Below are positions 11,997-52,103 of a DNA stretch of 64,000 nt, piece by piece. Position 1 is the first letter of the stretch; every line of letters starts with the position of its first letter. The position numbers were made by a program, and so were the translations under genes. The stretch lies in contig NZ_CP011254.1 of assembly GCF_001006005.1 (NCBI RefSeq), forward strand, positions 1,922,001 to 1,986,000, read 5' to 3'. Source of the stretch: Serratia fonticola (GTDB lineage Bacteria > Pseudomonadota > Gammaproteobacteria > Enterobacterales > Enterobacteriaceae). The notes under the pieces were generated by a model, which saw only the letters and a program-made list of their open reading frames with translations, was not told the origin of the DNA and did no database searches.

Positions 11997-13232
11997 CTAG
12001 CCTCTGAGTAGTTTAAGATCGAATCTGTCTTTCATATGTTGGACTATTTGTATAACTCTTTTCGCCAAGCTATTCTCATCACTATTCAGCAAGAGAAGCC
12101 ATGCTTCTGGGTTCATTTCCCAATTACCCGGGACATCCATGCTTGACTCAGCCCAACACCACCATGGCCACGAATCTGTCCCCTCTTCACTGACATAAGA
12201 AAAGCACTGATTCATTGCATTGCGAATTTGTAAGTACCGTACAGGATCCTTACCCTGTTCTGCTTCATCATTTCTGGCAATACCAAAACACAAACCTTTA
12301 TGGTTTGAATACTCAAATTGCCATTTCAGGAAAAACTGGTCACTTGGGTGGAAGATAACATAAAATCCTGATTCTTTTTTACCATAAAGTAAACTAGTAT
12401 CGTACTCAATGCTAACTTCAAGTGGTATGAGTTGATTTAGTAAATTATCTGAAAAATCTTGCCACATCTGAGACTTGATATTTCTTAAACTGCGTGCAGC
12501 CAAGAAGGTGGCGCGGATATTTTCAGGGCTGCTGAGTATTAACTGAGTTAATTCATTCTGCTCATCCATATTACTTTCTCCATTTATATTCTCACGAATG
12601 AATTGGGCAAGCTCATTGATAAATATGCGTACTTGCAGGGCTGTGACATGCAGGGCACACTCCTCCAACCATTCGACAAAACGGTAGAAAGTGAAAGGAA
12701 ATACACCATCTTTTAGATTGGGATTACTGCCATTTGGTAGGGTTTTTTCACCTATTTCGTTATTGCATAGATAGATGAGTAACCAATGGTTTTGGATATA
12801 TCGCTCATTCATCCACTTGGCATAGTCGTAAAGTTGTAATAGTTGATCTTCAGCCCAGGGTTTGTTTTCGATGCCAATAGCACTGTTTGAACGGGTCAAC
12901 AACAGATCCAATCGCCGCGAATCAGGCATTGTGTATTCGGTAAAAATCGTTGCTTCCCCTGAGCTAGGAAATCTCAGGTTTTCAGGCAAGATTTGAAGAA
13001 ATTTTGAGAGAAATAATTCACCTTGGCCATGAGCTTCTTTTGGATCAAGCAAAAAGGCCAAACAGCGGGAGAGAGTCATTTCGTTACATCGAAATAAGTC
13101 AAACAGACGAAAATTTGGTGCAAGTCTGCTCTGATAGTGCTCTTTTGCTTGGCGATTAAGCGTATCCCATACTGAGATATGACTGAGAAACCTTGTCAAC
13201 TCACCCACCTGTTTATCCATTACGTGGTCCAA
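11997..13232 (-). CDS. PD-(D/E)XK nuclease-superfamily protein
   Basis: The 411-residue protein has a PD-(D/E)XK core near residues 95-150: Asp in RRLDLLLTR, then the E-x-K of GIENKPWAEDQLLQLYDYAKW. The ENK plus Gln/Tyr helix is typical of the PD-(D/E)XK groups found as stand-alone defence genes. A helical N-terminal region contains LSRCLAFLLDPKEAHGQG, a phrase I associate with this family. The C-terminal half (230-411) is a separate domain without recognised motifs. The start appears to be TTG at 13232: AGGAGG lies eight bases before it, while the next Met codon (13220) is too far from that site. It sits alone between the rhs region and the base-modification operon, consistent with a single-gene anti-phage function, which is inference. 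Confidence 0.7.
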   Translation of the reverse strand: MDHVMDKQVGELTRFLSHISVWDTLNRQAKEHYQSRLAPNFRLFDLFRCNEMTLSRCLAFLLDPKEAHGQGELFLSKFLQILPENLRFPSSGEATIFTEYTMPDSRRLDLLLTRSNSAIGIENKPWAEDQLLQLYDYAKWMNERYIQNHWLLIYLCNNEIGEKTLPNGSNPNLKDGVFPFTFYRFVEWLEECALHVTALQVRIFINELAQFIRENINGESNMDEQNELTQLILSSPENIRATFLAARSLRNIKSQMWQDFSDNLLNQLIPLEVSIEYDTSLLYGKKESGFYVIFHPSDQFFLKWQFEYSNHKGLCFGIARNDEAEQGKDPVRYLQIRNAMNQCFSYVSEEGTDSWPWWCWAESSMDVPGNWEMNPEAWLLLLNSDENSLAKRVIQIVQHMKDRFDLKLLRG

Positions 13233-14483: not shown

Positions 14484-14816
14484 ATGTCAGGCTCAGGTGG
14501 GGGTAGTTATGGCGGCCAGTTTGGTCAGGCTGATTTTGAAGTTAGCTGTGAAAAACTTAGGATTGATACTCAACTAAGTTCGCCTGTCCCACAGGTTGTG
14601 GCCCAGTTGACAGTCGGTGACATCCTGGGAATTGCTCAAATTAACTCTCAGGGTTCTCAGCTTACGGTTGCTATATATAACGGTATGCAAGTTGGTGGTC
14701 TTGCGTCACCCTATATTCAGCGTCTGCGCTACTGCATGAACAGCGGAACAACCTACGTTGCTAGAGTCACAGCCATCAATGGTGGCCAGGTTAGGGTCAG
14801 TGTGTACGCGATATGA
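14484..14816 (+). CDS. Small protein with Gly/Ser-rich N-terminus; candidate substrate of the QueC-like enzyme
   Basis: A 110-residue protein headed by a flexible MSGSGGGSYGGQFGQ segment, followed by a compact β-rich domain: LRIDTQLSSPVPQVVAQLTVGDIL, a central VAIYNGMQVGGLASPYIQRL and a final GGQVRVSVYAI. The N-terminus resembles Gly/Ser-headed partner proteins of QueC-like enzymes in defence loci, such as the MGTS-type start of QatB. In type IV CBASS a QueC-like enzyme attaches a 7-deazaguanine-type base to the N-terminus of its partner. GAGG before the ATG supports the start, and the stop overlaps the next gene (ATGA). A role as the modified or signalling component is inference from this arrangement. 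Confidence 0.6.
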   Translation: MSGSGGGSYGGQFGQADFEVSCEKLRIDTQLSSPVPQVVAQLTVGDILGIAQINSQGSQLTVAIYNGMQVGGLASPYIQRLRYCMNSGTTYVARVTAINGGQVRVSVYAI

Positions 14817-16054
14817 GTAACGATAAAATGCTAACTGAGAACTCCATTACGATTGTTGGGGGGGCTTATCATGAAGTCTGCCTTCATCCAGGAAATCACC
14901 AGGTTTACGGTTCTGCCGGAAGAGCCGCGTCAGCACTGGCAATGCTCAGTGTAAACGTCGATCTTCACACCTACGCTGATGATGTTGTTAGTTCGGTACT
15001 ACGGGATCGCGCTCATTTTGAAAAATTTAAGTTAAATGCACATCCGATACGAGAGTCCGTCATGTTTCACTACGAACATGGCTTGGCTGAACCACGCATA
15101 TTCAACTACCCGGACACTCCTTACCCGACAATGACAGTAACAGCTCCCTGCGTTCTACGTTATGGAATGCTTGAAGGCTCCTCCATCGTCGATGCTGACT
15201 ACGCAGTATATGACCCCCAGAATGTGACCAACCCAGAGCCATTCACAGCTAATGGATCCAAAGCAAAGCATCTGGCACTGATACTGAATCGTTATGAAGC
15301 AAGAATGCTCAGTTGCCAAAACGGATTATCCGACCGACAACAGGCGGAGTTTCTTTATAATAACGGTTATGCTGAAGTTATCATCATTAAACAGGGGCCA
15401 GCCGGAGCACTCATTTGTGATAAGGGTAACATCTCCTATGTTCCTGCATATGAGACTAACTTTGTGCACAAGATTGGCTCGGGTGATGCGTTCGTTGCTT
15501 ATTTTGCCTATGAGTGGATGCTGAATAAAAAAACGGCCCATGACGCTGCAAACCAGGCCTCACTTGCCACCGCCTGCTACTGCGAAAGTGGTCTTTTCCC
15601 GTCATCTGGGGGACTGGCTGCTTTCAATCCCAATCCCATCAGACTCTCACAAAAATTTATCGAAGGTGGCAACAGAAAGGTCTATTTGGCTGGCCCCTTT
15701 TTTACACTTGCACAACTGTGGCTTGTTGAGCAGGCACAACGCAATTTGAGCGATCTGGGACTGGACGTTTTTTCCCCCTATCATAAGATTGGACATGGAA
15801 CTGCGGAAGAAGTAGTTGAAAAGGATCTCGACGCGATAAGGCAGGCTGACATTGTTTTTGCAATAGGTGATGGGCTGGACTCTGGCACAATCTACGAGGT
15901 TGGTTATGCCCGGGCAAGGGACATTCCAGTGGTGTTTTATGCTGAGAACGAATCGGAAGAAGACCTGAAAATGATGGAGGGGTCGGGCTGTATTCTCAGC
16001 GCTGATTATGTCACGGCAATCTATAAAACACTTTGGGTGGCAGCTAAAGAATGA
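14813..16054 (+). CDS. PfkB-family kinase fused to nucleoside 2-deoxyribosyltransferase
   Basis: Residues 10 to about 275 form a ribokinase/PfkB-type domain: an opening ITIVGGAYHEV, glycine pair SAGRAAS, LNRYEARML, IIIKQGPAGALI, and the catalytic KIGSGDAFVAYFAYE with its general-base Asp. The N-terminal sugar-binding part is shorter than usual. Residues 288-413 are a nucleoside 2-deoxyribosyltransferase (NDT) domain: VYLAGPFF, then DAIRQADIVFAI, DSGTIYEVGYA with the catalytic Glu, and IPVVFYAEN. NDT enzymes move or hydrolyse the base-deoxyribose bond; PfkB kinases phosphorylate sugars or nucleosides. A single chain doing both would suit handling of an unusual nucleoside for the QueC-like partner. 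Overlaps of four bases at each end show tight coupling. Confidence 0.8.
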   Translation: MSNDKMLTENSITIVGGAYHEVCLHPGNHQVYGSAGRAASALAMLSVNVDLHTYADDVVSSVLRDRAHFEKFKLNAHPIRESVMFHYEHGLAEPRIFNYPDTPYPTMTVTAPCVLRYGMLEGSSIVDADYAVYDPQNVTNPEPFTANGSKAKHLALILNRYEARMLSCQNGLSDRQQAEFLYNNGYAEVIIIKQGPAGALICDKGNISYVPAYETNFVHKIGSGDAFVAYFAYEWMLNKKTAHDAANQASLATACYCESGLFPSSGGLAAFNPNPIRLSQKFIEGGNRKVYLAGPFFTLAQLWLVEQAQRNLSDLGLDVFSPYHKIGHGTAEEVVEKDLDAIRQADIVFAIGDGLDSGTIYEVGYARARDIPVVFYAENESEEDLKMMEGSGCILSADYVTAIYKTLWVAAKE

Positions 16055-16656
16055 AAACCGCACTCTTGCTTTCAGGTGGGATGGACTCCATTGCCATTGC
16101 ATGGTGGAAACGCCCGGATATCGCTCTGACACTTGACTATGGCCAGCATGCTGCTGAGGCTGAAATCAAAGCCGCTTCTATCACCTGCCAGACGCTAGGG
16201 ATTGAGCATCACATCATCCGTATTGACTGCCGTTCACTGGGGTCAGGAGATATGGCCGGTACCGAAGCGGATCCGAATGCGCCATCCAGCGACTGGTGGC
16301 CGTACCGTAACCAGATGCTTATCTCGCTGGCAGCCATGAAAGCTATAGCTCTTGGCGTCACCCATCTGTGGATAGGCACTGTAAAATCGGATGGAACTCA
16401 TCTGGACGGTACCTCGGGTTTTGTCAGCAGAATTAGCGATCTTATGGTATTCCAGGAAGGCGGCATGGTCATAGAAGCCCCTGCAATTGAGCTATCAACA
16501 TCTGAGCTGATCAGGATTTCAGATGTCACGCCGGGAGGCCTCGCCTGGGCGCACAGCTGTCATAAGGCAAACATCCCGTGCGGCAGTTGTCGGGGGTGCA
16601 ATAAATATTTTCAGGTTCTGGATGATGTCGGATATGATTTGGACCGATCCCGGTAG
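16051..16656 (+). CDS. QueC-like (7-cyano-7-deazaguanine synthase-type) PP-loop enzyme
   Basis: The 201-residue protein has an N-terminal PP-loop ATP site (LLLSGGMDSIAIAWW), QueC-type LDYGQHAAEAEIKAA, WPYRNQMLISLAA in the place of PGRN in true QueC, and the zinc site at the end (Cys in SCHKANIPCGSCRGCNKY, four Cys in all). True QueC turns carboxy-deazaguanine and ammonia into preQ0. Here no queD, queE or tgt gene accompanies it and the substrate loop differs, so the acceptor may be a protein amine instead of ammonia, as reported for Cap9 of type IV CBASS. It shares ATGA with the gene upstream and overlaps the nitroreductase gene downstream. Confidence 0.78.
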   Translation: MKTALLLSGGMDSIAIAWWKRPDIALTLDYGQHAAEAEIKAASITCQTLGIEHHIIRIDCRSLGSGDMAGTEADPNAPSSDWWPYRNQMLISLAAMKAIALGVTHLWIGTVKSDGTHLDGTSGFVSRISDLMVFQEGGMVIEAPAIELSTSELIRISDVTPGGLAWAHSCHKANIPCGSCRGCNKYFQVLDDVGYDLDRSR

Positions 16657-17308
16657 TCCCGTTCCCCGGGAGAAGGCGCATAGTTATCAGCCCTTCAATT
16701 GGCCTGCCGGAGAGCCGTTTTTCTTGACGCCCCCCCATGAGAATGCAGTGCTACCCGCATTGAGTGGCGTGATCGAAGGTCGCAGAACACAACGCAGTTT
16801 CGGCCATGTCAGCTTGACCCAACTTTCTCAATGGCTCTGGCTGACAGGTAGGGTCATGGCGGTGGGGCATTCAGAATATGGGTTTCCGCTTACGCAACGT
16901 CCTGTGCCTTCTGCGGGAGCTATACATCCGATTCATATAGTTCTTTCCCTGTCTGACCAAGATGGCTGGCAACTTTACCTACCTGACATGCACGCGTTGA
17001 CACCGTTGCTTATTTCGGAACAGACCCGGTCTGAGATTCGTGACGAGTTGTCACCGGTTATTGATATCCAGAACGGTATTGCTGTCAGGTTTATCGCCGA
17101 GCCTGGAAAAACGTCGGCGAAATATGTAAATGCTGATAGCTTGATCTGGCGTGATGCTGGTGCCTTGGTTGGCCAGATGGCACTTGTTGCCGAAGCTCTG
17201 GCCTGTAATTTCTGCCCTATGGGCATTACAGGACATGACTGGTGCGCCAGATTAAAACTGGAAGGTCGTCTGGCGGGTACCGGACTGGCGGTTTTTGGTT
17301 CGCGCTGA
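16622..17308 (+). CDS. SagB/McbC-type nitroreductase-fold oxidoreductase
   Basis: I set the start at ATG 16622 (AGG six bases upstream); 16625 and 16634 are alternatives. This makes a 35-nt overlap with the QueC-like gene and a 228-residue product. Motifs of SagB/ThcOx-type FMN oxidoreductases are visible: GRRTQRSFG near the start, PSAGAIHPIHIVL (FMN-binding), and CNFCPMGITGHDW near the end. These enzymes oxidise thiazoline/oxazoline rings in peptides or reduce nitro and nitrile-like groups. In this operon it may act on the conjugated deazapurine, for example reducing a nitrile or oxidising a linkage; that is speculation. Its last 57 bases overlap the convergent glycosylase gene. Confidence 0.75.
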   Translation: MMSDMIWTDPGSPVPREKAHSYQPFNWPAGEPFFLTPPHENAVLPALSGVIEGRRTQRSFGHVSLTQLSQWLWLTGRVMAVGHSEYGFPLTQRPVPSAGAIHPIHIVLSLSDQDGWQLYLPDMHALTPLLISEQTRSEIRDELSPVIDIQNGIAVRFIAEPGKTSAKYVNADSLIWRDAGALVGQMALVAEALACNFCPMGITGHDWCARLKLEGRLAGTGLAVFGSR

Positions 17309-18097
17309 ACGTGGGCGCAGTTTAGCAAGAGGCTGATTGCGCAGGTTTTCTATCAGACTGAACACTGTGCTGGAAGAGGCCTGCATTTCATACCAGATCA
17401 ACGCATCCAGCTCTGACGCTTTGACGCCCATTGCTTTACTGAACTCAAGGAATAGCTGCTCCAGCTTCAGGTAATCACGTTCAACAGTCAGGTCGCCTGG
17501 GAAGAATCCGGCCAGTAGTCCTGCTCGCAGTATATGGATGTCCAGAATGGCTACATCATCTGCGCTGAGCCAGTTGCGCGCCACCCATGAAGCCGTTTTA
17601 TGTCCGATGCCGGGTATTGAGAGCAACCAATCTCGAAGCACGCGCCCTGAATCCGTTGGAGGTACCTCCGCATTGAGTTTGTTCAGCGCTGCTGCGAGAT
17701 AGCGGGACTTCTGTCTGGCAAAGCGGTAATGCACTGATTTACTGCCGGTTTCAATTGGTTGTGAAAGCCATTCATAAATAAGGTCTTCTGGCGGCGGCTC
17801 AGCATTAAACGCGCCACAATCTTTTAGCTTATTGAACGCCGCTAGACCTACCGCTGCCGGTATGCCATGCCCACCTAGCAGACATGCACCCACTTCTTCT
17901 TTGAGCGTTCGTCCGAGTTTGTAATTGACAGCATTAACCTCTAGACGCCGGGCCAGCACCTGATAGGCCCAGTAGGCCGGGGATGGGAACGCCTCAATTT
18001 TGCCCCACGGAACGCCCGGCAGAATATTCTGCTCTGGAGCTGGAAAGTCCAGATTAATAACTGCTGGTCCAATGAAGACCGCTCCACTTTGTGTCAT
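17252..18097 (-). CDS. OGG-like HhH-GPD DNA glycosylase
   Basis: ATG at 18097 overlaps the dam-like stop (ATGA) and gives 281 residues. The helix-hairpin-helix is LLSIPGIGHKTASWVARNWL. It holds the Lys expected of bifunctional OGG enzymes, and the catalytic Asp follows in VAILDIHILRAGLLAGF. The N-terminal sheet and long helical middle fit 8-oxoguanine glycosylases of the family that appears as Cap11 beside QueC-like genes in type IV CBASS. It would excise a modified purine or nick DNA bearing it. It is co-transcribed with the methylase and runs head-on into the nitroreductase gene with a 57-nt overlap, which ties the two operons physically. Confidence 0.78.
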   Translation of the reverse strand: MTQSGAVFIGPAVINLDFPAPEQNILPGVPWGKIEAFPSPAYWAYQVLARRLEVNAVNYKLGRTLKEEVGACLLGGHGIPAAVGLAAFNKLKDCGAFNAEPPPEDLIYEWLSQPIETGSKSVHYRFARQKSRYLAAALNKLNAEVPPTDSGRVLRDWLLSIPGIGHKTASWVARNWLSADDVAILDIHILRAGLLAGFFPGDLTVERDYLKLEQLFLEFSKAMGVKASELDALIWYEMQASSSTVFSLIENLRNQPLAKLRPRSARTKNRQSGTRQTTFQF

Positions 18098-18765
18098 ACT
18101 GCCTCCAGGCCATATCTGGCATTCAGCCAATGGATCAGTTCGTTGCGCTCTGTGGGTTCCATCCGTTCGATGCGTTCATAAAGCCGGGTGCGGCGACGGA
18201 TACGGGTCTGCCTTTCTCGGTAATTGCTGCCCATGTAGCGGGTGTCATGCAACCTGTCAGGTACATAAAAATTCATCCAGACACACTCTTCGCGAACATC
18301 GGTATGTGTCTTCGCGTTGAACCGCTCGCAGCGCCAGCCGCTGAGCATTTCGTCATAGATTGGATTTCTGTAACCAGATACCATGACCATGCAGGGCAGC
18401 GTGAGAAGTACTTGCAGTAACTGGCGATGATCGTCATCTGTATATTCATGACGATAAATCTTGCTGCGTTTGCGTGTGCTTTGAACGTAGGGTGGATCGG
18501 CGTAAACCAGCTCATTGCCTTGGTAAGAGTATGTGCTGAGATAAGCGATTGCGTCACCCCGGACAAGTTCGCAGGAAACGTCATCAATGCCATGCCAGAG
18601 GTCAATAACCTGCTGGTCTAGATCTATGCCAATATTACGGTCTGCGGGCAGCTTGTTGCGCATTACTGCCCCCCCGCCAAGATGGGTTTCAATATATGTA
18701 TCGTGCTTTGGCATCAGATTGATGAGTCGCTGATAGCACTTGCCTTTACCTCCGGGATATCTCAT
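18094..18765 (-). CDS. Dam-like (D12 class) N6-adenine DNA methyltransferase
   Basis: The SAM-binding motif is RYPGGKGKCYQRL at the N-terminus, IGIDLDQQVIDLW follows, and the catalytic motif is LVYADPPYVQ at about residue 90, all of D12-class adenine methyltransferases. The product has about 223 residues, shorter than Dam (278), and its C-terminal 50 residues are Arg-rich. Start: ATG 18765 or GTG 18771; both lie at the edge of a 12-bp inverted repeat and neither has a good ribosome site. No restriction endonuclease gene is adjacent, so it is an orphan methylase. It may mark self-DNA that the coupled glycosylase then spares, which is inference. Confidence 0.8.
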   Translation of the reverse strand: MRYPGGKGKCYQRLINLMPKHDTYIETHLGGGAVMRNKLPADRNIGIDLDQQVIDLWHGIDDVSCELVRGDAIAYLSTYSYQGNELVYADPPYVQSTRKRSKIYRHEYTDDDHRQLLQVLLTLPCMVMVSGYRNPIYDEMLSGWRCERFNAKTHTDVREECVWMNFYVPDRLHDTRYMGSNYRERQTRIRRRTRLYERIERMEPTERNELIHWLNARYGLEAV

Positions 18766-18769
18766 ATAC

Positions 18770-18797
18770 ACATCATCGTCAGAAATGACGATGATGT
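18770..18797 (-). promoter_or_regulatory. 12-bp perfect inverted repeat at the start of the dam-ogg operon
   Basis: ACATCATCGTCA and its exact complement surround a GAAA loop (loop read on the plus strand). The stem covers the GTG start at 18771 and ends five bases before the ATG at 18765. It could be an operator for autoregulation or an RNA hairpin that hides the start codon. Confidence 0.5.
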
Positions 18798-19114: not shown

Positions 19115-20482
19115 ATGAAGCACTGCACCAAAAGGATCTGGTCTGAACGCCAGGGCAACAATAACAGGCGCCCAGATGAAATAAGATCTGAATACGAACG
19201 CGACCTTTCTCGGCTGATCCATTCCTCTGCCTTCAGGCGTTTGCAGTCGAAGACGCAGGTATTGGGGCTTGGTGAGAGTGACTTCTACCGGACGCGGCTG
19301 ACTCATTCGATGGAGGTCGCCCAGATTGGTACCGGGATCTTGTCGCAGTTAAATAAACGCTATGAAAGTGGTAAATCAGATGAGGCCGAATTTCTGCCCG
19401 AACAGAGCCTGATGCAGGCTATCTGCCTTGCACACGATATCGGCCATCCGCCCTTCGGACACGGAGGTGAAGTTGCGCTGAACTACTGTATGAGGGCGCA
19501 TGGCGGATTCGAAGGTAACGGGCAGACGCTACGAATTCTCACCCGGCTTGATAAATATACTGAATCAAACGGGCTGGATCCCACCCGCAGACTGATATTG
19601 GGCGTGTTGAAATACCCGGGAAGCTACTCTGAGGTGGTTAACGAGAGTGCTTATGGCCAGCCACAGGCGGGAAGCCATGAATGGCTGTTCAAATCATCCC
19701 GGTTTAAGCCGCCCAAATGCTATCTCGACTCCGAAATTGACATCGTCGAATTTGCACTCTTGCCCTTTGATGACGAAGATACAGCGTTGTTTAAATCCGG
19801 TAATGAAAATGTGAGCCCGGACAAACACAGCAAAACGAAGTACAAGGCGCTGGATACTACGATCATGGACCTAGCAGATGAAATTTCGTATTCACTACAT
19901 GATCTTGAAGATGCGATTTCACTGAGAATGATTGACAGAAACATGTGGATGGACCATTTCAGGGACAAGGAATGTCTATTCGAGGCCTGTCATCGTAGCT
20001 CATTTGATCTGACTGCTGATGCTGTGGCTGACAGACTGTTCGGTAAGAGTTATCTTCGCAAGGAGTGTATCGGGACACTGGTCCACCTGATGATCACCAG
20101 TGTCACAATCCAGGTGCAGCACCATGATTTCAAATGTGGCATGCTTCGCTACAAAGCGGTACTGCCTGAAGAGGTAGATATCTTGCGCAAGGCGATCTTT
20201 GAACTGGTCGAGGATAAAGTCATTCGGCATGAAAATGTTCAACTACTGGAATTCAAAGGGCAAAAGCTGATTGTGGAGCTATTTAATGTGCTGGCAAGCG
20301 ATCCCGAGCGTTTTCTTCCGTTAGAGACCCGTAACACTTATATAAAAGAAGCTGAAAAAGGCGAGGATCAAAAAATGCGAGTCATCAGCGACTATGTTGC
20401 AGGTATGACTGACGATTATGCCACTCGTCTGTATGAAAAGATCTTCGTTCCGGGTAAAGGGTCCATTTTTGACAGGCTCTGA
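19115..20482 (+). CDS. dGTPase-like HD-domain dNTP triphosphohydrolase
   Basis: AAGGAG precedes the ATG. The 455-residue protein follows dGTP triphosphohydrolases: RDLSRLIHSSAFRRLQSKTQ, the first metal His in RLTHSMEVAQ, the HD pair in CLAHDIGHPPFGHGGE, and MDLADEISYSLHDLEDA with the later Asp. These enzymes cut dGTP (or other dNTPs) into deoxynucleoside and triphosphate. Stand-alone dGTPases defend bacteria by draining the dNTP pool during phage replication. Here it is the last gene before a putative attachment site, beside other nucleotide- and base-acting enzymes. The housekeeping dgt gene is usually about 500 residues, so this shorter, island-borne copy is likely the defence type. Confidence 0.85.
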   Translation: MKHCTKRIWSERQGNNNRRPDEIRSEYERDLSRLIHSSAFRRLQSKTQVLGLGESDFYRTRLTHSMEVAQIGTGILSQLNKRYESGKSDEAEFLPEQSLMQAICLAHDIGHPPFGHGGEVALNYCMRAHGGFEGNGQTLRILTRLDKYTESNGLDPTRRLILGVLKYPGSYSEVVNESAYGQPQAGSHEWLFKSSRFKPPKCYLDSEIDIVEFALLPFDDEDTALFKSGNENVSPDKHSKTKYKALDTTIMDLADEISYSLHDLEDAISLRMIDRNMWMDHFRDKECLFEACHRSSFDLTADAVADRLFGKSYLRKECIGTLVHLMITSVTIQVQHHDFKCGMLRYKAVLPEEVDILRKAIFELVEDKVIRHENVQLLEFKGQKLIVELFNVLASDPERFLPLETRNTYIKEAEKGEDQKMRVISDYVAGMTDDYATRLYEKIFVPGKGSIFDRL

Positions 20483-26603: not shown

Positions 26604-29600
26604 TTAATTCCTCACCCTTATATTTTTCCCACCTGTTTTAGTGGAGAACCTGTCAACTAAATTAATCCCTTTCAAATCATCCGGTGTTGCCCATCGTGTT
26701 GGAATTTGGGATATTCCAGCCTCCTTAGCTGCATATAACCTTCTATTGTCTAAAGAAAATACTGAATGTTTGTGCGCTCCTTGTGACAATAGTTTTTCTT
26801 GGACTTCAACAGGGAGATCCACCATCCTCACTCTTCTTATTGGCTCAACTTGATTGATATATGAAGGATCATTTTTCAATCTAAATATTAAATCATTAAT
26901 TTTATTACCGTCACTAAAATGTGGATTAATACTATCTTGAGAGTACTGGATAGTTTTAGGATTTATGAATTTAATTGATGGCGGACAATCTCCCAACGCA
27001 TTCGCTAACCCCAGCGGATCCACCCACCCAGTAGGGTTAGGTACATACTGCGTCTGGTTTAGGCCACCGGCCAGCCCAATAGGGTCAGGGGTGATAAACC
27101 TTGCGGTCTCCGGCGAGTAATAACGATACCGGTTATAGTGTAATCCGCTTTCAGCATCGAAGTACTGCCCTTGAAAACGCAGTGGTTGCGGCACAGATTC
27201 AACGAACGCTACCGCCAGATTGCCGTAGGCGCGGTACGCCGCGCTCCAGGCAATCTGTCCTTTGCCGTTGACCAGTTCCTGCGGGGTGCCCAGATGGTCA
27301 TTCAGGTAGTAGTAAATCTCCGACTTGCGTCCTTTGCCCAGTAACTGCGCCAACGGCACAAAGCTGCCGGGGCTGTACAGGTAGCTTTTATAGGTCGCCA
27401 GGTGCGCCGGTTTTGGGTCATCCGCTGTGAAGATATTATCATCGTCGGCGCATTCTGCCACCATCCGCTCACCCTGCCAGAAGAACCGGGTTAGGGCATT
27501 AGGCCGTTGGGCTAGCAGGTCCTGCTTTTGGATGCGTCGACCAAAGGCATCATAGGTATAGGCAAAATGGGTTTTCTGCCCCTGGCGTTGTTCAATAAAT
27601 TCCACCAGCCGATGCTGGCAGTCATAACGGAACTCCCGCACCCACAGTGGCTTGGTGCTGCGCACTTCACGTGTCAGGTTGCCAAACTCGTCATACTCGA
27701 ACCGCACATCGCCTTTCTGCTTCAGCAGGTTGCCACGCACTTGTGTTCCACGGGAGGCAGCATCGTTCCCCAATACGTTACCCGCTGCATCGTGCGTAAA
27801 CTGTTCACTGATACCCCTCCAGCGCAGCGCCTGCGGCAAGGCTTCGGGGTAGGCTATCGGGTGGTGCAGCGCTTCGGTCAGGCGATGTTGCTTATCGTAG
27901 CGGTATTCCCGGTTGCCTTTGTGCGGGTCGAGGATCTGCGTCAGGTTGCCTGCCGGGTCGTACTCGTAACGGCGCTGCATCACCGGTGTTACGTCTGGGG
28001 CGTCACCCTCCAGTTCTGCCTGTACCAGGGCAGTAGCACGTTGATGGCGCAGGCGTTGCTGCGCGTCATAATCAAACTCGCTTACCACCTCACCGGTGAT
28101 GCGCCGGGTTTCCCGCTCGCCGCGATACTGGTGTTCACTCAGTATGCGGCCATTCAGGTCAATGCGTGAGACTTGCCCCTGTTGGTAGTGGTAAGCCAGC
28201 AGGTTGCCATCGGGCAGGCGTTGGCGCGTCAGGTTGCCCGCGTTGTCATAGCCGTAAAACAGGCTGGCAAAGCCCTGATACTCCTCCGTCAGGCGACCAA
28301 CCTCATCATAGCCGTACGCCAATGGCCAATGCCCGTCATCCACCAGGCGCAGGCGGTTAAAACTATCGTAGGCGTAACAGACTTCCTTGCCGTCCGGCAA
28401 CACTTTGCGAACTAGCCTCCCGGCAGCATCCCGCTCGTAGCGGGTCACCAGCGCGGTCTGTTCACTCTGGCTAGTGCCGTACTCGGTGCGCTGGGTCAGG
28501 TGCCCGTTCAGGTCGTAGTCATAGAGGAAGTGGCGTCCGTCAACGGTGTGTTCTTCACTCACCAACCCGTTAGGGTAATAGGCCAGCCGATGATGTTCGC
28601 CGTTCTGGTTGATGATGTCGCTGACGAAGTTCTTCGGGTTGTCATAGCGGTATTCCACCTGGCTGAGGTCGGGGTAAATGACTCGGCTCACCAAATGGGA
28701 GTTTGGATGGTATTCGTATTGGGTGGTCAGCCCTTTTTCATCACGTTCGCTGGTCACCTTGCCGTAGGCGTTGTACCGGTAGTGGCGTACTGTGCCGTCA
28801 GGCGCGTGAATAGCCTCCAGCCGGTTGGCGGCATTCCAGGTATAACGGGTACCGTTGACCCCTGCCTCGTCCAGTGGGCTATCGCTGTGCCGGATCACCT
28901 GCCCCAGCAGGTTGTAACGATAATAGTGGGTCAGCCCGTTGCGCTGATGGTGTTCCAGCACCTGGCCAAAGGCATCGCGGACAAAGCGCTCGCGGCTGCC
29001 ATCCGGGTATTGCACCTCGTTGAGTGCCCCTTGCGCAGACCACAGGTAGTGGCAGGTATTGCCCAACGCATCGGTTTCTTCCGTCAGGTTGCCCTGCGTG
29101 TCGTAGCGATACCGTTCACGGATCTTGTCCTCCTGATCGAGGCTCCAGGTGGTTTTCTCTACGACCCGGCCCCGCGAATAACGGTATTGGGTCTCTTGTC
29201 CGTCAGGAGTGCGCACCCAGGTGCACTGCAGTTCACCGTTATAACCATATTCGGTGCGGTTGCCCAATGGATCGGTTTCACTCAGCAGCTCACCGCGTTC
29301 ACCGTATTCATTGAGGTGGGTCGCGCCGTCCGGGTCGACCTTCTTTATCAGGCGACGAAAGCGGGTGTCATGTTGCCAGGTCTCCCGTGAGCCGTCCTGA
29401 TGGACCAGGGTGACGGCCCCGGGTTGCTCATCCCACAGAAAACGTTGGTCAAAGTTCGGCAGGTTGCTCCAGTGGTGCACCGCACGGGCCTGTTTGCCTT
29501 CCCCTTGCCACTCCCAGTAAAACTCAGCTCCGCCAGCCAACTGCCGCAGGCTGAACACATAGTCATCACGGTACTGATAGCGCTCGGCTTCCCCGGCCGC

Positions 29601-31478
29601 ATTGATAGCGGCACTCAGTTGCCCCCGCTCATCGTACTCATAGGTCATCAGCGGATGGAGAGCCTCTTCCCGACCCGATTCAGGGGTCAGGCTCAGCTGC
29701 GTCAGGCGCCAGCCTTGAGGTAGCTCCTGATAGCTGAACTGCAAGGCTGCACCAGCCGGATGTTCCAGCCGAACAGGTAAGCCATCGTGATAATGCAGGG
29801 TCAACCGCAACTGGCGGTGTGAAAGGCCGGTGATGCGCCCGGTCGTTTGCCCCGTAACCCGATGCACATGCAACACCCAGCCTTCCATGCTACCGGCCAT
29901 CAGGCAGTAGCTATTGGGCTCCTCGTCCAGATAGGCGGCGGCCCCGGCTACATAGTTAAGCCCACTTGGGGAAACTTCGGTAGGTAACGGCAGAATGGTG
30001 GTGAGGGTCTGGTGATCGGTCCAGTGCAGTTCATCACCGATAAACTCCACCTGATGTTGCAGGCTGTGGCTCCAGCCAAAACCAAACACCGATGTGCGTT
30101 CGACCGCGGTGGTGCGGTACTGACGCTGGAAGATAAAGGGCGTCAGGCCAATCAGTTGCCCATCGTCCAGAGTAAGCAACTCTTCGCCGTTGATCAGCGA
30201 GACCGGGCAGCCGGTGCCGGGGGTGCACTGCGAGTTCACCGTGGGCTGGTCAGCCGCATTTGTCGCAGGGCTGTTTTTCACCGTGCCTGAGTTATCCACC
30301 AGACCAGTTTGGTTTGACGAACCCAGCTGGTTTTTCCGATCCTGTTTCAACTTGGCATTGGCCTGGCGCTTGAGGTTCATTTGGCGAGTCTTCTCAAAGA
30401 ACCGTTTGACCAGTTCCAGGGTGGCAAACAGAATCGTCTTCAGTCCCTGCCAGACAGACTGCAATGCGCTGCCCAGTTTCTTGAGCAAGCTGCCTACCTT
30501 ATAGATCAGAAACGCCACGCCCAACCCGGCGGTCACCAGGGTCAGCAGCGCCCCGAAGACAATGCCGACCAACGCATCGCTGATAATGGAACCCCCTATT
30601 TTTACCATCGGTTCCAGTAGTGCACCCCAGGGGTACATACGCACTTGCAGTTCCACCGAACGCATAAACAGGTACAACGCAGCTTCATCATTGAACAGCG
30701 CCAACAGCTCGCGGGCCATCTGCTTGCTGCCTTCCAGCAGGGACTTCAGTTTCTGTTCATCTAACTGGGTGATGAGATCCTTATACTTACCCGCTTCCGC
30801 ATAGATTTTCTGCCCGTACTTTGCGGGGTCGGTGATCACGTCGTAGGCCAGTTTTACGTCGTCCCACAGCCCGAACATGCCGTCGTACAGCCCAGCGCCC
30901 AGCGCGGTCAACAGGCCTGCATTGATTGGGCTCAGCTGCCACTGAGGCCTGTAGGTCTGCCATTGCGTTGACAAGGTGTCGTACATCTCTAGCATCAGGC
31001 CGTCATAGGCTTGCAGCATCTGGACATTGTGCTGCTCAAGCTGGGGATCGGTGGCTTTAACGTAATATTTCTTGCCCGCAGTCAGACCAGGGAAACGGGC
31101 TATGCCTTGCTCATCGGTCTGCTGGGTAGCCACCTTCGAGTCAAAACCAAAACTGACATCTTCATAGATCTCAATGGTCACATCGGGGATGGGGAGTTCG
31201 AGCGTAGACTCGTAGGCGAGGGCAACCTTGATCTCGCCACTCTTCGGGCAGGTCACTACGCTACTCTCAAAGCTGCGATCGTTTTCCGAGACCACGGTCT
31301 TGCTGTCGTTGAGCCGCAGGGTTTTTTCCATCTCCAGCGTCGGCCCACCTAATCGCCCTGAAATGCTGCTGGCCGTGGCCCACTCCTTGACGATCTGCCG
31401 ATACTCTTGGGTGATCAGGGTCTTGTTTTTGAAGCCCAGCAAGGCATTGTCAATACTCGCAATATATTCGGTCGTCAT
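26604..31478 (-). CDS. rhs: Full-length Rhs T6SS effector without PAAR, with a distinct toxin tail
   Basis: The 1624 residues begin with a non-PAAR region. Residues 60-165 have a transthyretin/CnaB-like β domain (IPDVTIEIYEDVSF, GIARFPGLTAGKKYYVKA), then helices and a hydrophobic pair near 300-330 (DALVGIVFGALLTLVTAGLG). The Rhs shell starts about residue 405 (CPVSLINGEELL) and runs through YD repeats to the cleavage motif DPLGLANALG. The last 120 residues are the toxin: PKTIQYSQDSINPHF, IRRVRMVDLP and SVFSLDNRRLYAAKEAG. The SLDNRRLYA element recalls ParB/sulfiredoxin-like toxin domains, tentatively. DUF4123 and VgrG genes directly upstream suggest loading through the adaptor in place of a PAAR tip. 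Confidence 0.88.
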   Translation of the reverse strand: MTTEYIASIDNALLGFKNKTLITQEYRQIVKEWATASSISGRLGGPTLEMEKTLRLNDSKTVVSENDRSFESSVVTCPKSGEIKVALAYESTLELPIPDVTIEIYEDVSFGFDSKVATQQTDEQGIARFPGLTAGKKYYVKATDPQLEQHNVQMLQAYDGLMLEMYDTLSTQWQTYRPQWQLSPINAGLLTALGAGLYDGMFGLWDDVKLAYDVITDPAKYGQKIYAEAGKYKDLITQLDEQKLKSLLEGSKQMARELLALFNDEAALYLFMRSVELQVRMYPWGALLEPMVKIGGSIISDALVGIVFGALLTLVTAGLGVAFLIYKVGSLLKKLGSALQSVWQGLKTILFATLELVKRFFEKTRQMNLKRQANAKLKQDRKNQLGSSNQTGLVDNSGTVKNSPATNAADQPTVNSQCTPGTGCPVSLINGEELLTLDDGQLIGLTPFIFQRQYRTTAVERTSVFGFGWSHSLQHQVEFIGDELHWTDHQTLTTILPLPTEVSPSGLNYVAGAAAYLDEEPNSYCLMAGSMEGWVLHVHRVTGQTTGRITGLSHRQLRLTLHYHDGLPVRLEHPAGAALQFSYQELPQGWRLTQLSLTPESGREEALHPLMTYEYDERGQLSAAINAAGEAERYQYRDDYVFSLRQLAGGAEFYWEWQGEGKQARAVHHWSNLPNFDQRFLWDEQPGAVTLVHQDGSRETWQHDTRFRRLIKKVDPDGATHLNEYGERGELLSETDPLGNRTEYGYNGELQCTWVRTPDGQETQYRYSRGRVVEKTTWSLDQEDKIRERYRYDTQGNLTEETDALGNTCHYLWSAQGALNEVQYPDGSRERFVRDAFGQVLEHHQRNGLTHYYRYNLLGQVIRHSDSPLDEAGVNGTRYTWNAANRLEAIHAPDGTVRHYRYNAYGKVTSERDEKGLTTQYEYHPNSHLVSRVIYPDLSQVEYRYDNPKNFVSDIINQNGEHHRLAYYPNGLVSEEHTVDGRHFLYDYDLNGHLTQRTEYGTSQSEQTALVTRYERDAAGRLVRKVLPDGKEVCYAYDSFNRLRLVDDGHWPLAYGYDEVGRLTEEYQGFASLFYGYDNAGNLTRQRLPDGNLLAYHYQQGQVSRIDLNGRILSEHQYRGERETRRITGEVVSEFDYDAQQRLRHQRATALVQAELEGDAPDVTPVMQRRYEYDPAGNLTQILDPHKGNREYRYDKQHRLTEALHHPIAYPEALPQALRWRGISEQFTHDAAGNVLGNDAASRGTQVRGNLLKQKGDVRFEYDEFGNLTREVRSTKPLWVREFRYDCQHRLVEFIEQRQGQKTHFAYTYDAFGRRIQKQDLLAQRPNALTRFFWQGERMVAECADDDNIFTADDPKPAHLATYKSYLYSPGSFVPLAQLLGKGRKSEIYYYLNDHLGTPQELVNGKGQIAWSAAYRAYGNLAVAFVESVPQPLRFQGQYFDAESGLHYNRYRYYSPETARFITPDPIGLAGGLNQTQYVPNPTGWVDPLGLANALGDCPPSIKFINPKTIQYSQDSINPHFSDGNKINDLIFRLKNDPSYINQVEPIRRVRMVDLPVEVQEKLLSQGAHKHSVFSLDNRRLYAAKEAGISQIPTRWATPDDLKGINLVDRFSTKTGGKNIRVRN

Positions 31479-31488
31479 AGTCCATTAC

Positions 31489-32280
31489 TCACGGTCGAAA
31501 AGAGGAAACGTTGAAGGTGATCACCTCAAACGGATTGGTACGGCAGCTCAGCGCATCTACCAGGGCCTGGGATAGCCGTGCGGTTCGCTTCTTCGGATCT
31601 GGCGTCTGTTGCCAGACCTGCGGGTAAAGCCGCAGCGCTATCTGGCGCAGTACCGGTTCTGGCACGGCTTGATAGAGTTCAAACTCATTCTCGCGCAGCC
31701 AGGTCAGCTGGTTGGCGATCAGCGGTTCTGGATCTTCATCCAGCAATGCATCTACCATCCCTTGGGGCACCAGCCACCAGGGGCTAATCTGGGCCTGCGC
31801 AGAAGGATCCACTGGGCAGGTAAAACCCTCGCCGTTCACCCAGTAATCGGAGAACACCGGCAGGATAGTGCGCCACTCATCGCCAAAGTAGCGCAGGTAA
31901 GCTGGCAGATAACGCCCATCCCAATAGCGGAAAAACACCGCTTTGCCGCTGGGCATGATCACCTGCGTCAAACCGGCAAGGTGGGTCGCCAGGGCAGCCT
32001 GCGGCAACGGCGAACGTGCCAGCCAGCCCCAGTTGCGTAAAGGGGTTTCTGCCACCCAGCGTAAGAATGGGCTGCCTTCGTTAAGTTGCACCAGCACCGG
32101 CATCACTTCAAACCAGTTGGCATAGGGCGTATTGGCGTAAAGCCCGTGCGGCGTGCGGCTACCGTCCTCACGGTAATAGGCTTTGATGCCTTGCGCACCA
32201 TGGGTATTGGCCAGGATGGCATACAGCGGTGTACCCGCCGTGTTTCTTACCCAGTCCTGTACACGATTTGACATGGTCAT
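31489..32280 (-). CDS. DUF4123 adaptor/chaperone for T6SS effector loading
   Basis: The 263-residue protein reads as DUF4123 (Tap/TEC): an N-terminal LYAILANTHGAQGIK, the middle LARSPLPQAALATHLAGLTQV and FFRYWDGRYLPAYLRYFG, typical of the domain, and a helical C-terminus. Adaptors of this family bind a specific effector and hand it to its VgrG. Gene order vgrG, DUF4123, rhs on one strand fits that role. AAGGAG lies three bases before the first ATG and nine before a second at 32274, so the second may be the real start. Confidence 0.85.
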   Translation of the reverse strand: MTMSNRVQDWVRNTAGTPLYAILANTHGAQGIKAYYREDGSRTPHGLYANTPYANWFEVMPVLVQLNEGSPFLRWVAETPLRNWGWLARSPLPQAALATHLAGLTQVIMPSGKAVFFRYWDGRYLPAYLRYFGDEWRTILPVFSDYWVNGEGFTCPVDPSAQAQISPWWLVPQGMVDALLDEDPEPLIANQLTWLRENEFELYQAVPEPVLRQIALRLYPQVWQQTPDPKKRTARLSQALVDALSCRTNPFEVITFNVSSFRP

Positions 32281-32387
32281 CTTCTCCTTGATTAAAGAAC
32301 GGCCTTAAACTGGCTGCGCCAGGTCAGCTAGCGTGCCGAAGAGGACGATATCCATTCCTCCCGAGAACAAAAAAACGGATCTTTTGC

Positions 32388-34682
32388 TCATGACTTTTTG
32401 CCCATCTTTTTGAATAGCTCTTCTACATCAGCAGATTGCGAACTTTTGAGCCGATCGCCGAGCATATTCAAATAGTCTTTACCCGTGGCACCGGACAGGT
32501 TGCCTGCGTTAACCATTGAGGTCAGCCCGCTGATAGGCAGCGAGCCAACGTTAGGCAACGCTTGAGAAACACCGCCTGCCGAGGCCCAGCCACTGCCGGG
32601 CATCCCTTGAGAGACACTGGCCGTTGCCGGCATCGCTCCACCGGATTGCTGTACAAAGCCGCTGCTTGCACCTTGGGCACTCGGCTTGGCAGGGGCCTCA
32701 TCTATCGGGCAACCTCCGGCTTTACATTTCTCACACTCTTCGCAATAAGGGGCATCACTACTAAGCACACCCTGCTGGATCAGCGTGGGTGCGGCCAACA
32801 ACGGCACCACACCCGGCATTTTCAGGTTGACGCCTTGTCCGCTGCCCGCAGAGCCACTACCCACCTGCAATGACGACGACGTGAAAATGGCCCCCGGTGC
32901 CAGTTTGATAAAGCTGCCCCCGGCCTTGAGCGTTAGCTCACTGCCCGCCGAGAGGGTGATTTTGGCCCCGGCTTCTACCGACACTTCCTGCCCAGCCTTC
33001 ACCACATAGGCGCTGCCAACCTGCAAATGGGATTCGCCGTCGGCCAGTTCAGACTTTTTGCCGCTGGTGTGGAGCGTGAGTTCGCCCTTGATGCGGCTTT
33101 CCCGGTTACCCTCGATTTCGCTCAGGCTGTTGCCGCCAATCTTGCTGCTCTGGTTGGCGCGAATGTCCCAGTGCGCATCGTTGTTGACCAGGGCCTTGAG
33201 GTCTTTCTGCGCATGCAGGTAAATCTCCTCGCTGCCCGCCTCATCCTCAAACGACAGTTCGTTAAAGCCCTCGGCCTTGTGCGATTTGGTGCGCCAGACC
33301 GATTTGGTCTTGTTGGCGGGCAGCGGGTAGGGCGGTTTGTTCAGGCCGTTGTAGTAACGCCCGCTCACCACCGGCCGATCGATATCGCCGTTCAGGTAGC
33401 TGATCAGCACTTCCTGGCCAATCCTTGGCAGCGTCACCGAGCCAAAACCGTCCCCCGCCCACTGGTTGGAGACCGGCACCCAGCAGGAGGCTTTTTCATC
33501 CGCCGGATCGTAACGGTTCCAGTGGAAATGCACCCGCACCCAGCCCAGTTCGTTGACGTACAGCTCTTCGCCCTTTGGCCCGACGATCGTGGCCACCTCG
33601 TCCCCGTCGGCCAACGGTTTGTAACGGTAGCTTGGCCGCCAGTCGATATTCCCCGGCGCAAAGGTCAGCGAGTTGGTGAAGGTGGTGCCGCTGCCGTTAC
33701 TTTCTTCTTCCAGCGCGGCAGGCTGCTCCCCACGGTGGCTGACGGTGATCACCTGCCAGCGATCGTTACGCGCCTGCACCGGGTGGCCCTGCAAGGTAAA
33801 AATTGTGCCCGGCATCAGCCGGATGCTGTTGGTTTCTGCTGCGCCCTGTTGGGTGCCCGCTTGCATGGCCTCCAGTCGCACGGCGCTGAGCTGCGGCCCG
33901 GTCTGGTCATCCTGATAACGGCCATAGCTCTCAAATACCGAGTACTGGGTGGCTTCACCGCCCAATGCAGGGTCGCTCTGCTTAAACTGCAGAGGATGGT
34001 CTGGCCGCCGGTGTTCGCGATCTTTCAGCACGCTTTCCCGTGACTGCATGAACGCTCCCAGGGTCAGCCGATGGGCGATGTCGCCCTGAGTTGGCGATTG
34101 GATATGCGGGTTGAAGGTCAGCGGGATACCTTCCGTCATGCTCAGATGCGAATCGCCATACACAAGTTCGTTATCTTCAAACCAGAAGCTGATCCCCACC
34201 TCGGCCATCAGCCGCAGGATGAAGTCCAGGTCGCTTTCGCGCTTCTGGGTCACGTACTCACGCGGTGGATAGGTCTGCTGGATATGGCTCTGGTAAGGGA
34301 TGCGGTGTTCGTCCAATACCTGATTGACGATGTCCGGCACCGACAGGAAATGGAAGATCCGGCTGTCCTGTTTCAGGCTCAGTACCCAGACATCCGGGCG
34401 GATCACCGCCTGATAGTAGGTGCGGCGAAAACCGCTTTCTCCCTGAGTCAGGCTGGCGATCAGCCCTGGGATCGTGCGCTGTTCCTTGCCACTGACGGTG
34501 ACGGTCAACGCCCCCGGCTGCAGCAACTGTGCTTCCAGTTCGATGTCTGACCGGGTGCTGACCAGGTTCACCGTCAGGGTAAACAGGGTTGACAACCCTT
34601 CTTCCAGGGTAAAACCGGCCACGTCAAAGGTGCCCGGAGGCAGTTCACCGAGTTGGCTGCTGAAAAATAATCCGCTGTCCAT
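32388..34682 (-). CDS. vgrG: T6SS spike protein VgrG
   Basis: The 764 residues follow TssI/VgrG. A gp27-like hub fills about 1-380 (LFFSSQLGELPPGTFDVAGF, FWFEDNELVYGD). The gp5-like OB domain contains VHFHWNRYDPADEKASCWVP and the β-helix needle runs to about 600. A C-terminal extension of about 150 residues is not part of the standard spike: a Cys-rich patch (CEECEKCKAGGCP), then a Gly/Ser/Ala-rich low-complexity stretch and a helix. The extension may bind the effector or adaptor. AAGGAG before the ATG supports the start. It is the first gene of the vgrG-adaptor-rhs module. Confidence 0.93.
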   Translation of the reverse strand: MDSGLFFSSQLGELPPGTFDVAGFTLEEGLSTLFTLTVNLVSTRSDIELEAQLLQPGALTVTVSGKEQRTIPGLIASLTQGESGFRRTYYQAVIRPDVWVLSLKQDSRIFHFLSVPDIVNQVLDEHRIPYQSHIQQTYPPREYVTQKRESDLDFILRLMAEVGISFWFEDNELVYGDSHLSMTEGIPLTFNPHIQSPTQGDIAHRLTLGAFMQSRESVLKDREHRRPDHPLQFKQSDPALGGEATQYSVFESYGRYQDDQTGPQLSAVRLEAMQAGTQQGAAETNSIRLMPGTIFTLQGHPVQARNDRWQVITVSHRGEQPAALEEESNGSGTTFTNSLTFAPGNIDWRPSYRYKPLADGDEVATIVGPKGEELYVNELGWVRVHFHWNRYDPADEKASCWVPVSNQWAGDGFGSVTLPRIGQEVLISYLNGDIDRPVVSGRYYNGLNKPPYPLPANKTKSVWRTKSHKAEGFNELSFEDEAGSEEIYLHAQKDLKALVNNDAHWDIRANQSSKIGGNSLSEIEGNRESRIKGELTLHTSGKKSELADGESHLQVGSAYVVKAGQEVSVEAGAKITLSAGSELTLKAGGSFIKLAPGAIFTSSSLQVGSGSAGSGQGVNLKMPGVVPLLAAPTLIQQGVLSSDAPYCEECEKCKAGGCPIDEAPAKPSAQGASSGFVQQSGGAMPATASVSQGMPGSGWASAGGVSQALPNVGSLPISGLTSMVNAGNLSGATGKDYLNMLGDRLKSSQSADVEELFKKMGKKS

Positions 34683-34702
34683 CGTTCACTCCTTGTGGTG
34701 TC

Positions 34703-36448: not shown

Positions 36449-36466
36449 ATCAATCCTTGACGTTGG

Positions 36467-39234: not shown

Positions 39235-39258
39235 GCTGAAGACATCCTGTCTTGGAGA

Positions 39259-49279: not shown

Positions 49280-49340
49280 GGTTATCCTATCCGTCTGAAA
49301 GAACGTGGCTCCCCGTAACGCGCCAGGAAGGGAGAAATCG

Positions 49341-50791: not shown

Positions 50792-50798
50792 CGGGCCC

Positions 50799-52059: not shown

Positions 52060-52103
52060 ATTGCGGATCCTGAAAAGGCGGGCCATCGGCCCGCTGGAAC
52101 ACA

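Follow-up and report, generated by a model that had tools for sequence, protein, structure and literature searches.

What does a QueC-like enzyme do when its gene follows those of a 110-residue protein with a Gly/Ser-rich start and of a PfkB-NDT fusion, and precedes that of a SagB-like dehydrogenase? This is the question raised by an operon in a 64,000-nucleotide stretch of the Serratia fonticola genome (contig NZ_CP011254.1, positions 1,922,001 to 1,986,000; hereafter the window). A preliminary description of the locus had listed four open reading frames (ORFs) between 14484 and 17308, and all four are present as described: the 110-residue protein, here called SMALL, the PfkB-NDT fusion, the QueC-like enzyme, here called QueC4, and the nitroreductase-like protein, which is the SagB-like dehydrogenase. 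We consider it probable that the operon is an anti-phage module acting by protein-nucleobase conjugation, in which QueC4 would tag the N-terminus of SMALL with 7-carboxy-7-deazaguanine (CDG). Conjugation of this kind is a recent find in type IV of the cyclic oligonucleotide-based anti-phage signalling systems (CBASS) and is suspected in the Qat system.

The operon is more than a chance arrangement, because the gene order SMALL, PfkB-NDT, QueC4 repeats in Pseudomonadota, Cyanobacteriota, Bacteroidota, Verrucomicrobiota, Planctomycetota, Campylobacterota, Actinomycetota and one haloarchaeon. The co-occurrence elsewhere that the preliminary description had predicted is also borne out by a search in which QueC4 (E <= 1e-25) and SMALL (E <= 1e-5) were sought independently: both were found in the same six of 398 genomes of the window's phylum (Pseudomonadota), the window's own included, with SMALL just upstream of QueC4 in all six. 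SMALL is the closest companion of QueC4. Our analysis covers 47 QueC4 loci (identified by L numbers): the window, two from E. coli, seven plasmids, 25 genome contigs, seven viral contigs and five further genomes. The genome scan gave at least 35 loci, of which 25 were counted as QueC4, as were seven of 20 viral loci; the opened records were two of 10 matching E. coli and eight of 54 matching plasmid records, plus one further plasmid. The set contains near-copies (L004, L005, L006 and L014; L008 and L015; L050 and L051; L030 and L031). SMALL is encoded in 44 of the 47 loci (45 proteins), PfkB-NDT in 45, an HhH-GPD/OGG 8-oxoguanine glycosylase (OGG) in 37 and the SagB-like protein in 33. In the three loci without SMALL (L022, L032 and L049) the contig begins too near upstream, the two without PfkB-NDT lie on contigs cut short, and some of the 10 loci without an OGG profile match and of the 14 without a SagB-like gene are likewise truncated. 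The proposed four-gene unit is thus co-conserved but extends past 17308, since OGG belongs to the system, often with a methyltransferase.

The operon is mobile and occurs in bacteria and in some archaea. Its carriers include plasmids typed as conjugative, viral contigs and P2-type prophage contigs, P2-like being our reading of PHROG matches. In two of these prophage contigs (L050 and L051) SMALL, PfkB-NDT and QueC4 stand beside a repressor and a replication gene, and a third (L049) begins at QueC4; as only these three genes of the system are present in L050 and L051, they are the smallest natural unit seen. Of 5426 E. coli genomes searched at megablast sensitivity, 10 have the operon, and in the phylum of Phytohabitans QueC4 was found in one of 396 genomes, that of the query itself. 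A search of 50,697 phage records returned no close relative of QueC4, its 87 matches all lying below 60% identity, for which reason QueC4 as a lytic-phage DNA-modification gene was set aside; the best among the phage matches listed, with 30 of the 87 viewed, has 31.5% identity and is annotated QueC-like.

SMALL looks like a dedicated N-terminal acceptor, as had been proposed, judging from its start, which reads M-[S/G/T]-G in every one of the 42 unique proteins and resembles the acceptor starts of type IV CBASS (MGGS) and Qat (MGTS). The second residue is mostly Ser (38 proteins), less often Gly (three) or Thr (one); the third is Gly throughout. The initiator Met is removed before Ser, Gly or Thr, so that the mature N-terminus would mostly be Ser rather than Gly. 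The constraint acts at the level of the protein, because the codons vary (TCN 30 and AGY 8 for Ser2, all four Gly codons for Gly3), and residues 2 and 3 are variable among the 44 PfkB-NDT starts taken as a control. Five SMALL proteins from genomes found later start MTGT, MSGS, MSGG, MSGS and MSGD, and all five agree with the motif. It should be noted that the first possible start yields the motif in 27 of 45 proteins and that an internal start was chosen in the other 18. In L028 and L035 SMALL starts MGGSGGG, exactly as does the CD-NTase (cGAS/DncV-like nucleotidyltransferase) of the Pseudanabaena type IV CBASS (L069).

The AlphaFold2 model of SMALL (30 sequences; mean pLDDT 85.5) predicts a Gly/Ser-rich disordered tail at residues 1 to about 20, followed by a HIRAN-like domain at 22-110. 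The pLDDT falls below 50 at 17 residues (1-3 and 5-18) and its block means are at least 90 from residue 21 onwards. SMALL therefore has the disordered tail with a conserved small residue-Gly N-terminus that marks protein deazaguanylation systems. Foldseek matched the model to 3k2y, and to the HIRAN domain of HLTF (6kcs, 4xzg, 4xzf and 4s0n), each with a probability of 1.00, a TM-score of 0.57-0.64 and an rmsd of 2.3-3.9 Å; the E-values are weak (3.8e-3 to 1e-1, the best HIRAN-labelled match at 1e-2), and phage and viral HIRAN proteins are also among the structure matches. SMALL thus looks, in its model, like a HIRAN fold behind a Gly/Ser tail. The HIRAN domain of HLTF binds 3' DNA ends. Cys22, Gly71 and Cys84 of SMALL are invariant (34/34). 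By eye, the SMALL of a Haloarcula plasmid (L012:4152-4787) seems to carry its core domain twice in tandem, after an MGGGGSSR tail.

QueC4 belongs to PF06508 (Table 1) and reaches only 68.7 bits with the NCBIfam QueC model TIGR00364, far under its cut-off of 150.3. Judged by its motifs it is of the same family as PF06508 Cluster 4 of Libby (2026; PMC13329287): it has the SGGxDS loop, the YGQ...E motif, a C-terminal CHKANIPCGSCRGCNK that fits the Cluster 4 signature CH(x)5CxxCxGCxK exactly, and the PfkB-NDT neighbour, the spacing of the second motif being YGQ(x)5E against the printed YGQ(x)6E. The same paper gives a PF00294-PF05014 neighbour for Cluster 4 in ~89% of cases and suggests a role in purine salvage, so that the pairing of QueC-like and PfkB-NDT genes, to which the preliminary description drew attention, is real but already in print. 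In the main text of that paper the words nitroreductase and HIRAN are absent, and the passages on Cluster 4 consulted mention neither SMALL nor OGG; titles and abstract openings of the open-licence literature yielded nothing on this operon beyond that Cluster 4 paragraph.

Among 27 QueC4 relatives the ATP loop, Tyr30, Trp82-Trp83-Pro84, Arg86-Asn87, Asp119 and the zinc Cys residues (Cys170, Cys177, Cys180 and Cys183) show little or no variation. In HMMER alignments Asp119 (27/27) aligns with the residue by which Cap9 recognises the Watson-Crick edge of the base, Asp117 (Gao, 2026; PMC13279940), and His117 (at least 90% of the 27) and His171 (27/27) replace Tyr131 and Tyr189, which are essential in E. 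coli QueC (Libby, 2026; PMC13329287). A GSG[DE]LxG stretch is common to QueC4 and Cap9 and is missing from two canonical QueC structures. The best Foldseek match of the QueC4 model (AlphaFold2, mean pLDDT 93.1) in the PDB was Cap9-CdnD with NDG (9nto_B, E = 1.6e-10), with canonical QueC (2pg3, 6.9e-10) close behind. QueC4 is a predicted base-protein ligase. Ordinary queuosine synthesis by QueC4 was set aside because the tyrosine pair that defines canonical QueC (Tyr131 with Tyr189) is replaced and because the host genome carries a canonical queC elsewhere (E = 4.9e-80). The idea that QueC4 is an offshoot of Cap9 was also dropped: in the tree the 35 QueC4 rows form one group (support 100/100) with Cap9 outside it, a joint clade of Cap9 and QueC4 being unsupported by the tree yet not rejected (approximately unbiased test, p-AU 0.424).

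The nature of the base is suggested by two actinobacterial relatives, Microbacteriaceae VKM Ac-2854 (L037) and Phytohabitans suffuscus (L038, a record titled chromosome), in which the operon runs on into queD (TIGR03367, above cut-off) and carries a QueE-like gene, whose best matches, to TIGR03963 (5e-27 and 5e-23), fall below cut-off. Both genomes have one PF06508 match (E <= 1e-3) and one QueE match (E <= 1e-8), and since these sole QueC-family and QueE matches lie inside the operon they link the system to CDG. A QueE gene is the rule beside canonical queC in the control loci and was found beside QueC4 only in L037 and L038. A queuosine-precursor-transporter-like gene (annotated VUT family; TIGR00697 at 4.4e-8, below cut-off) lies downstream of the operon on a Roseivivax plasmid (L010), and in no other QueC4 locus. 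Among 25 hosts, canonical queC was found in 14, a PTPS/QueD match in 18 and a QueE match, whether the host's own or that of the operon, in 20. The preliminary description had used the lack of queD, queE, tgt and CD-NTase genes to argue against queuosine synthesis and standard CBASS. The second half of that list stands, as neither a CD-NTase nor a tRNA-guanine transglycosylase (TGT) was found among the nine window gene products scanned; the absence of queD and queE from the operon, on the other hand, says nothing against the use of a deazaguanine, because 20 of the 25 hosts have QueE and two relatives carry both genes. We infer that a base is joined to SMALL, CDG being the likeliest one.

Several observations weigh against this reading. 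QueC4 and Cap9 are not nested together in the tree, QueC4 has His117 where Cap9 has its base-stacking Tyr, and 38 of 42 SMALL proteins would offer Ser as acceptor, against Gly for Cap9 and, by proposal, for QatC. SMALL had no Foldseek match under E 1e-3, no Pfam HIRAN match was found by sequence in 34 SMALL members, and the window's SMALL has no Pfam match at all. No TGT-like Cap10 was detected among the nine window gene products scanned, with a library that does detect TGT in L069 and in a Rhizobium plasmid (L013) described below. Eleven of the 25 hosts gave no match to canonical queC, and the queD and queE-like genes of L037 and L038 could instead serve preQ0 synthesis by QueC4. QueE (E <= 1e-8) was missed in five of the 25 hosts, four metagenome-assembled genomes (MAGs) and one isolate draft (Blastococcus), and these misses count against a strict need for CDG. 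They would agree with the same module using another carboxylate base, perhaps supplied by PfkB-NDT, as is suspected for QatC; His117 in place of the stacking Tyr and the presence of PfkB-NDT in 45 of 47 loci, the other two being truncated, point the same way. We think such a tag unlikely, given that Asp119, the counterpart of the Asp117 with which Cap9 reads guanine, is invariant (27/27), that two operons include queD and queE-like genes and that a third stands by a queuosine-precursor-transporter-like gene.

PfkB Asp225 and NDT Glu362 are each kept in 43 of 44 unique PfkB-NDT rows, and OGG Lys178 and Asp197 (numbering of the mechanical 292-aa ORF) in 35 of 35; we take these to be the catalytic residues of their families. 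Because they are conserved, PfkB-NDT and OGG look like active enzymes. The only exception among the PfkB-NDT rows is a second copy on a viral contig (L054:5670-10143), which has two SMALL and two PfkB-NDT copies around a single QueC4; in this second copy Asn and Ala replace Asp225 and Glu362. OGG, which matched N-glycosylase/DNA lyases of the PDB at 1.1e-12, is convergent and downstream in 22 loci and co-directional and upstream in 15. In a planctomycete (L028) the PADLOC family OGG (6e-74), a family of type IV CBASS, directly follows QueC4. Dam-like methyltransferase profiles have matches in 17 of 47 loci, in all of which OGG is convergent, and a dGTPase adjoins the operon in eight of 42 loci (the window, L004, L005, L006, L019, L020, L023 and L029) and in L086, which between them span several unrelated lineages. 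The SagB-like protein scores 57.5 bits with TIGR03605 (SagB-family peptide dehydrogenase; cut-off 78.4), and its PF00881 match is weak (0.0011) and below cut-off. Residue 2 of SMALL is Ser or Thr in 33 of 33 loci with a SagB-like gene and Gly in three of 10 loci without one, the truncated L055 being left out (Fisher p = 0.0097, or 0.011 with near-copies collapsed); this association is a lead only, because independent pairs on the tree give it no support. The roles of PfkB-NDT and of the SagB-like dehydrogenase are a matter of conjecture.

Whether the genes lie in defence islands had been named as a check, and their neighbourhood supports it. PADLOC families (E <= 1e-10) were sought in 110 of 161 QueC4 neighbours and in 110 of 173 neighbours of canonical queC, the latter taken from 14 of the same 25 genomes. 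Matches to the SMALL, PfkB-NDT, QueC, SagB-like and OGG profiles were removed from the target set, and QueC was kept in the control (eight control matches). The QueC4 neighbours matched 130 families and the control five, one of them QueC itself; since several families can match one protein, the 130 do not equal as many distinct defence proteins. The first 25 of the 130 comprise GajB, ThsB, JetB, JetD, DrmD, AbiEi, HEC-05, PDC-M70, PDC-S19, two dGTPases and others, and the target matches include three that resemble the operon's own methyltransferase, one to the OGG of L028 and two to a transposition protein. The operon often adjoins anti-phage genes and canonical queC does not. By this comparison, and by its occurrence as prophage cargo, the operon stands among defence genes, as an anti-phage system would.

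Such neighbours, set against a near-empty control, are not readily explained by metabolism. In a purine or nucleoside salvage pathway QueC4 would amidate a small nucleobase, PfkB-NDT would exchange and phosphorylate it, and SMALL would act as carrier or regulator, which is close to the suggestion published for Cluster 4 (Libby, 2026; PMC13329287) and would suit the conserved PfkB and NDT residues. We nevertheless find salvage improbable, because the distribution is patchy and mobile (10 of 5426 E. coli genomes at megablast sensitivity, plasmids, prophage contigs) and SMALL, with its invariant N-terminus, has no evident metabolic role. It is very unlikely that QueC4 supplies DNA with a 7-deazaguanine derivative, OGG and the Dam-like enzyme providing restriction and protection: the locus does contain DNA enzymes, and L037 and L038 have queD and queE-like genes, but no TGT/DpdA-type transglycosylase was found among the nine window gene products scanned, the methyltransferase is present in 17 of 47 loci, and the OGG profile was not found in 10 of 47, some of them truncated. 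That SMALL is a precursor in a natural-product pathway of the type making ribosomally synthesised and post-translationally modified peptides, modified by QueC4 and the SagB-type peptide dehydrogenase (itself below cut-off) for export, is highly unlikely, as SMALL is modelled as a confidently folded domain and not a leader peptide and 14 of 47 loci, some truncated, gave no match to the dehydrogenase.

In the anti-phage conjugation module that we favour, QueC4 would use ATP to activate CDG, normally from the queuosine pathway of the host, and would then link it through an amide bond to the exposed first residue of SMALL, in most cases Ser and in some Gly or Thr. The roles of the remaining parts are speculative. 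The HIRAN-like domain may steer the tagged SMALL to DNA ends or stalled replication, and OGG may read the guanine-like tag, or be recruited to DNA by it, and then cut there; PfkB-NDT may make, trim or elaborate the base and the SagB-like dehydrogenase, where present, may finish the linkage. In a more elaborate form the operon would encode a base-tagged DNA-end sensor: with CDG on the Ser of the HIRAN-type SMALL, a second ATP-dependent step of QueC4 would cyclise the Ser side chain with the new amide to give an oxazoline, the SagB-like enzyme would oxidise this to an oxazole, NDT and PfkB would convert the attached base first to a nucleoside and then to a nucleotide, and this mimic at DNA ends would be read by OGG or license it to cut replicating phage DNA. 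So specific a chain of steps is a long shot; if true, the operon would belong to a class of modular systems in which HIRAN, TIR and CD-NTase proteins are each tagged by related enzymes.

Of the known systems, type IV CBASS shares with this operon a QueC-family enzyme keeping the guanine-reading Asp and an acceptor with a Gly/Ser-rich M-small-G start. The HhH-GPD/OGG protein found here has a place in type IV CBASS too, and the L028 operon carries the very OGG family of PADLOC. The operon differs in its HIRAN-like, mostly Ser acceptor and in the added PfkB-NDT and SagB-like enzymes. In L069 the type IV CBASS has Cap9 (PADLOC QueC, 2.6e-69), Cap10 (TGT, 6.5e-110) and the CD-NTase mentioned above. 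In the opened QueC4 relatives no annotated neighbour bears the name CD-NTase, though many of these neighbours are hypothetical proteins. Qat resembles the operon in having, without a CD-NTase, a QueC-family enzyme and a partner with a disordered tail and a conserved N-terminal motif, MGTS (PMC13279940). QatC, however, has long extensions (about 400 aa, against 201 aa for QueC4) and Thr/Thr for Tyr/Asp, QatB is all-helical whereas the partner here is HIRAN-like, and neither the QatA ATPase nor the QatD nuclease was found among the nine window gene products scanned. With Cluster 4 the operon shares the SGGxDS, YGQ and CH(x)5CxxCxGCxK motifs and the adjacent PfkB-NDT gene of what is the same family, the difference lying in the purine salvage proposed for it (Libby, 2026; PMC13329287).

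A further variant was found on a Rhizobium sophoriradicis plasmid (L013:2700-7062), whose operon encodes a PfkB of the same family (7.5e-86), an HhH-GPD protein (1.7e-21), a QueC-like protein (6.8e-19), a TIR-TGT fusion (TGT 1.8e-22) and, with the start MGGGSSGS, a ThsB-like TIR protein; among the records listed, ten from Rhizobium show the same match to QueC and HhH-GPD. It differs from the Serratia operon in that the likely acceptor is the ThsB-like TIR protein, the TIR-TGT fusion is added, and the NDT part keeps its Glu but has lost conserved residues around it. From its gene content L013 is likely to be a TIR-based base-conjugation system. Across L069, L013 and the present operon, related tagging genes thus accompany likely acceptors of three kinds: a CD-NTase, a TIR protein and a HIRAN-like protein. 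If the Serratia operon is indeed a third conjugation system, with an acceptor of DNA-binding type, base-on-protein tagging would appear to be a general immune tool, and an enzyme family whose role is now guessed to be metabolic (PF06508 Cluster 4) would be reassigned. The operon also offers a simple testable system, its smallest natural unit being one 110-residue acceptor, one QueC and one PfkB-NDT.

Table 1. Features of the operon and its neighbours in the window.
Feature	Position	Strand	Remarks
Small protein SMALL	14484-14816	+	110 aa; window ORF
Predicted acceptor N-terminus Met-Ser-Gly of SMALL	14484-14492	+	Gly3 and Ser/Gly/Thr2 conservation
PfkB-NDT fusion	14813-16054	+	413 aa; Pfam matches PF00294 (PfkB) and PF05014 (NDT)
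QueC-like enzyme (QueC4)	16051-16656	+	201 aa; PF06508 7.5e-23
SagB-like dehydrogenase, nitroreductase family	16634-17308	+	TIGR03605 1.1e-15, below cut-off
HhH-GPD/OGG 8-oxoguanine glycosylase/lyase	17252-18097	-	PF22175 9.9e-14; start set by annotated relatives
Dam-like adenine methyltransferase, optional partner	18094-18771	-	PF02086 8.1e-11
dGTPase, recurrent neighbour, non-core	19115-20482	+	PADLOC dGTPase 3e-146

The gene boundaries in Table 1 agree with the two ATGA overlaps reported earlier, which are exact at both the SMALL/PfkB-NDT and the PfkB-NDT/QueC4 junction. The 35-nt overlap reported for the SagB-like gene has to be revised: it comes from the ATG at 16622, and the starts annotated in relatives L004, L006, L007 and L008 point to the ATG at 16634, which overlaps QueC4 by 23 nt (in L005 the annotated start lies 9 nt further upstream than the equivalent of 16634). 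The OGG gene is convergent with the SagB-like gene, with a tail-to-tail overlap of 57 nt, and overlaps the Dam-like methyltransferase gene by 4 nt. Beside the operon, ThiF-type (ubiquitin-like) genes and a WYL-type regulator were seen on a cyanobacterial plasmid (L009, annotated) and in a Sulfuricurvum MAG (L020, by eye). Upstream of the operon in the window, a PDDEXK nuclease at 11997-13232 on the minus strand matches the PADLOC candidate PDC-S26 (9.5e-38). Further downstream, 26604-40719 was recognised by eye as a type VI secretion region and 45585-52652 as a fimbrial region.

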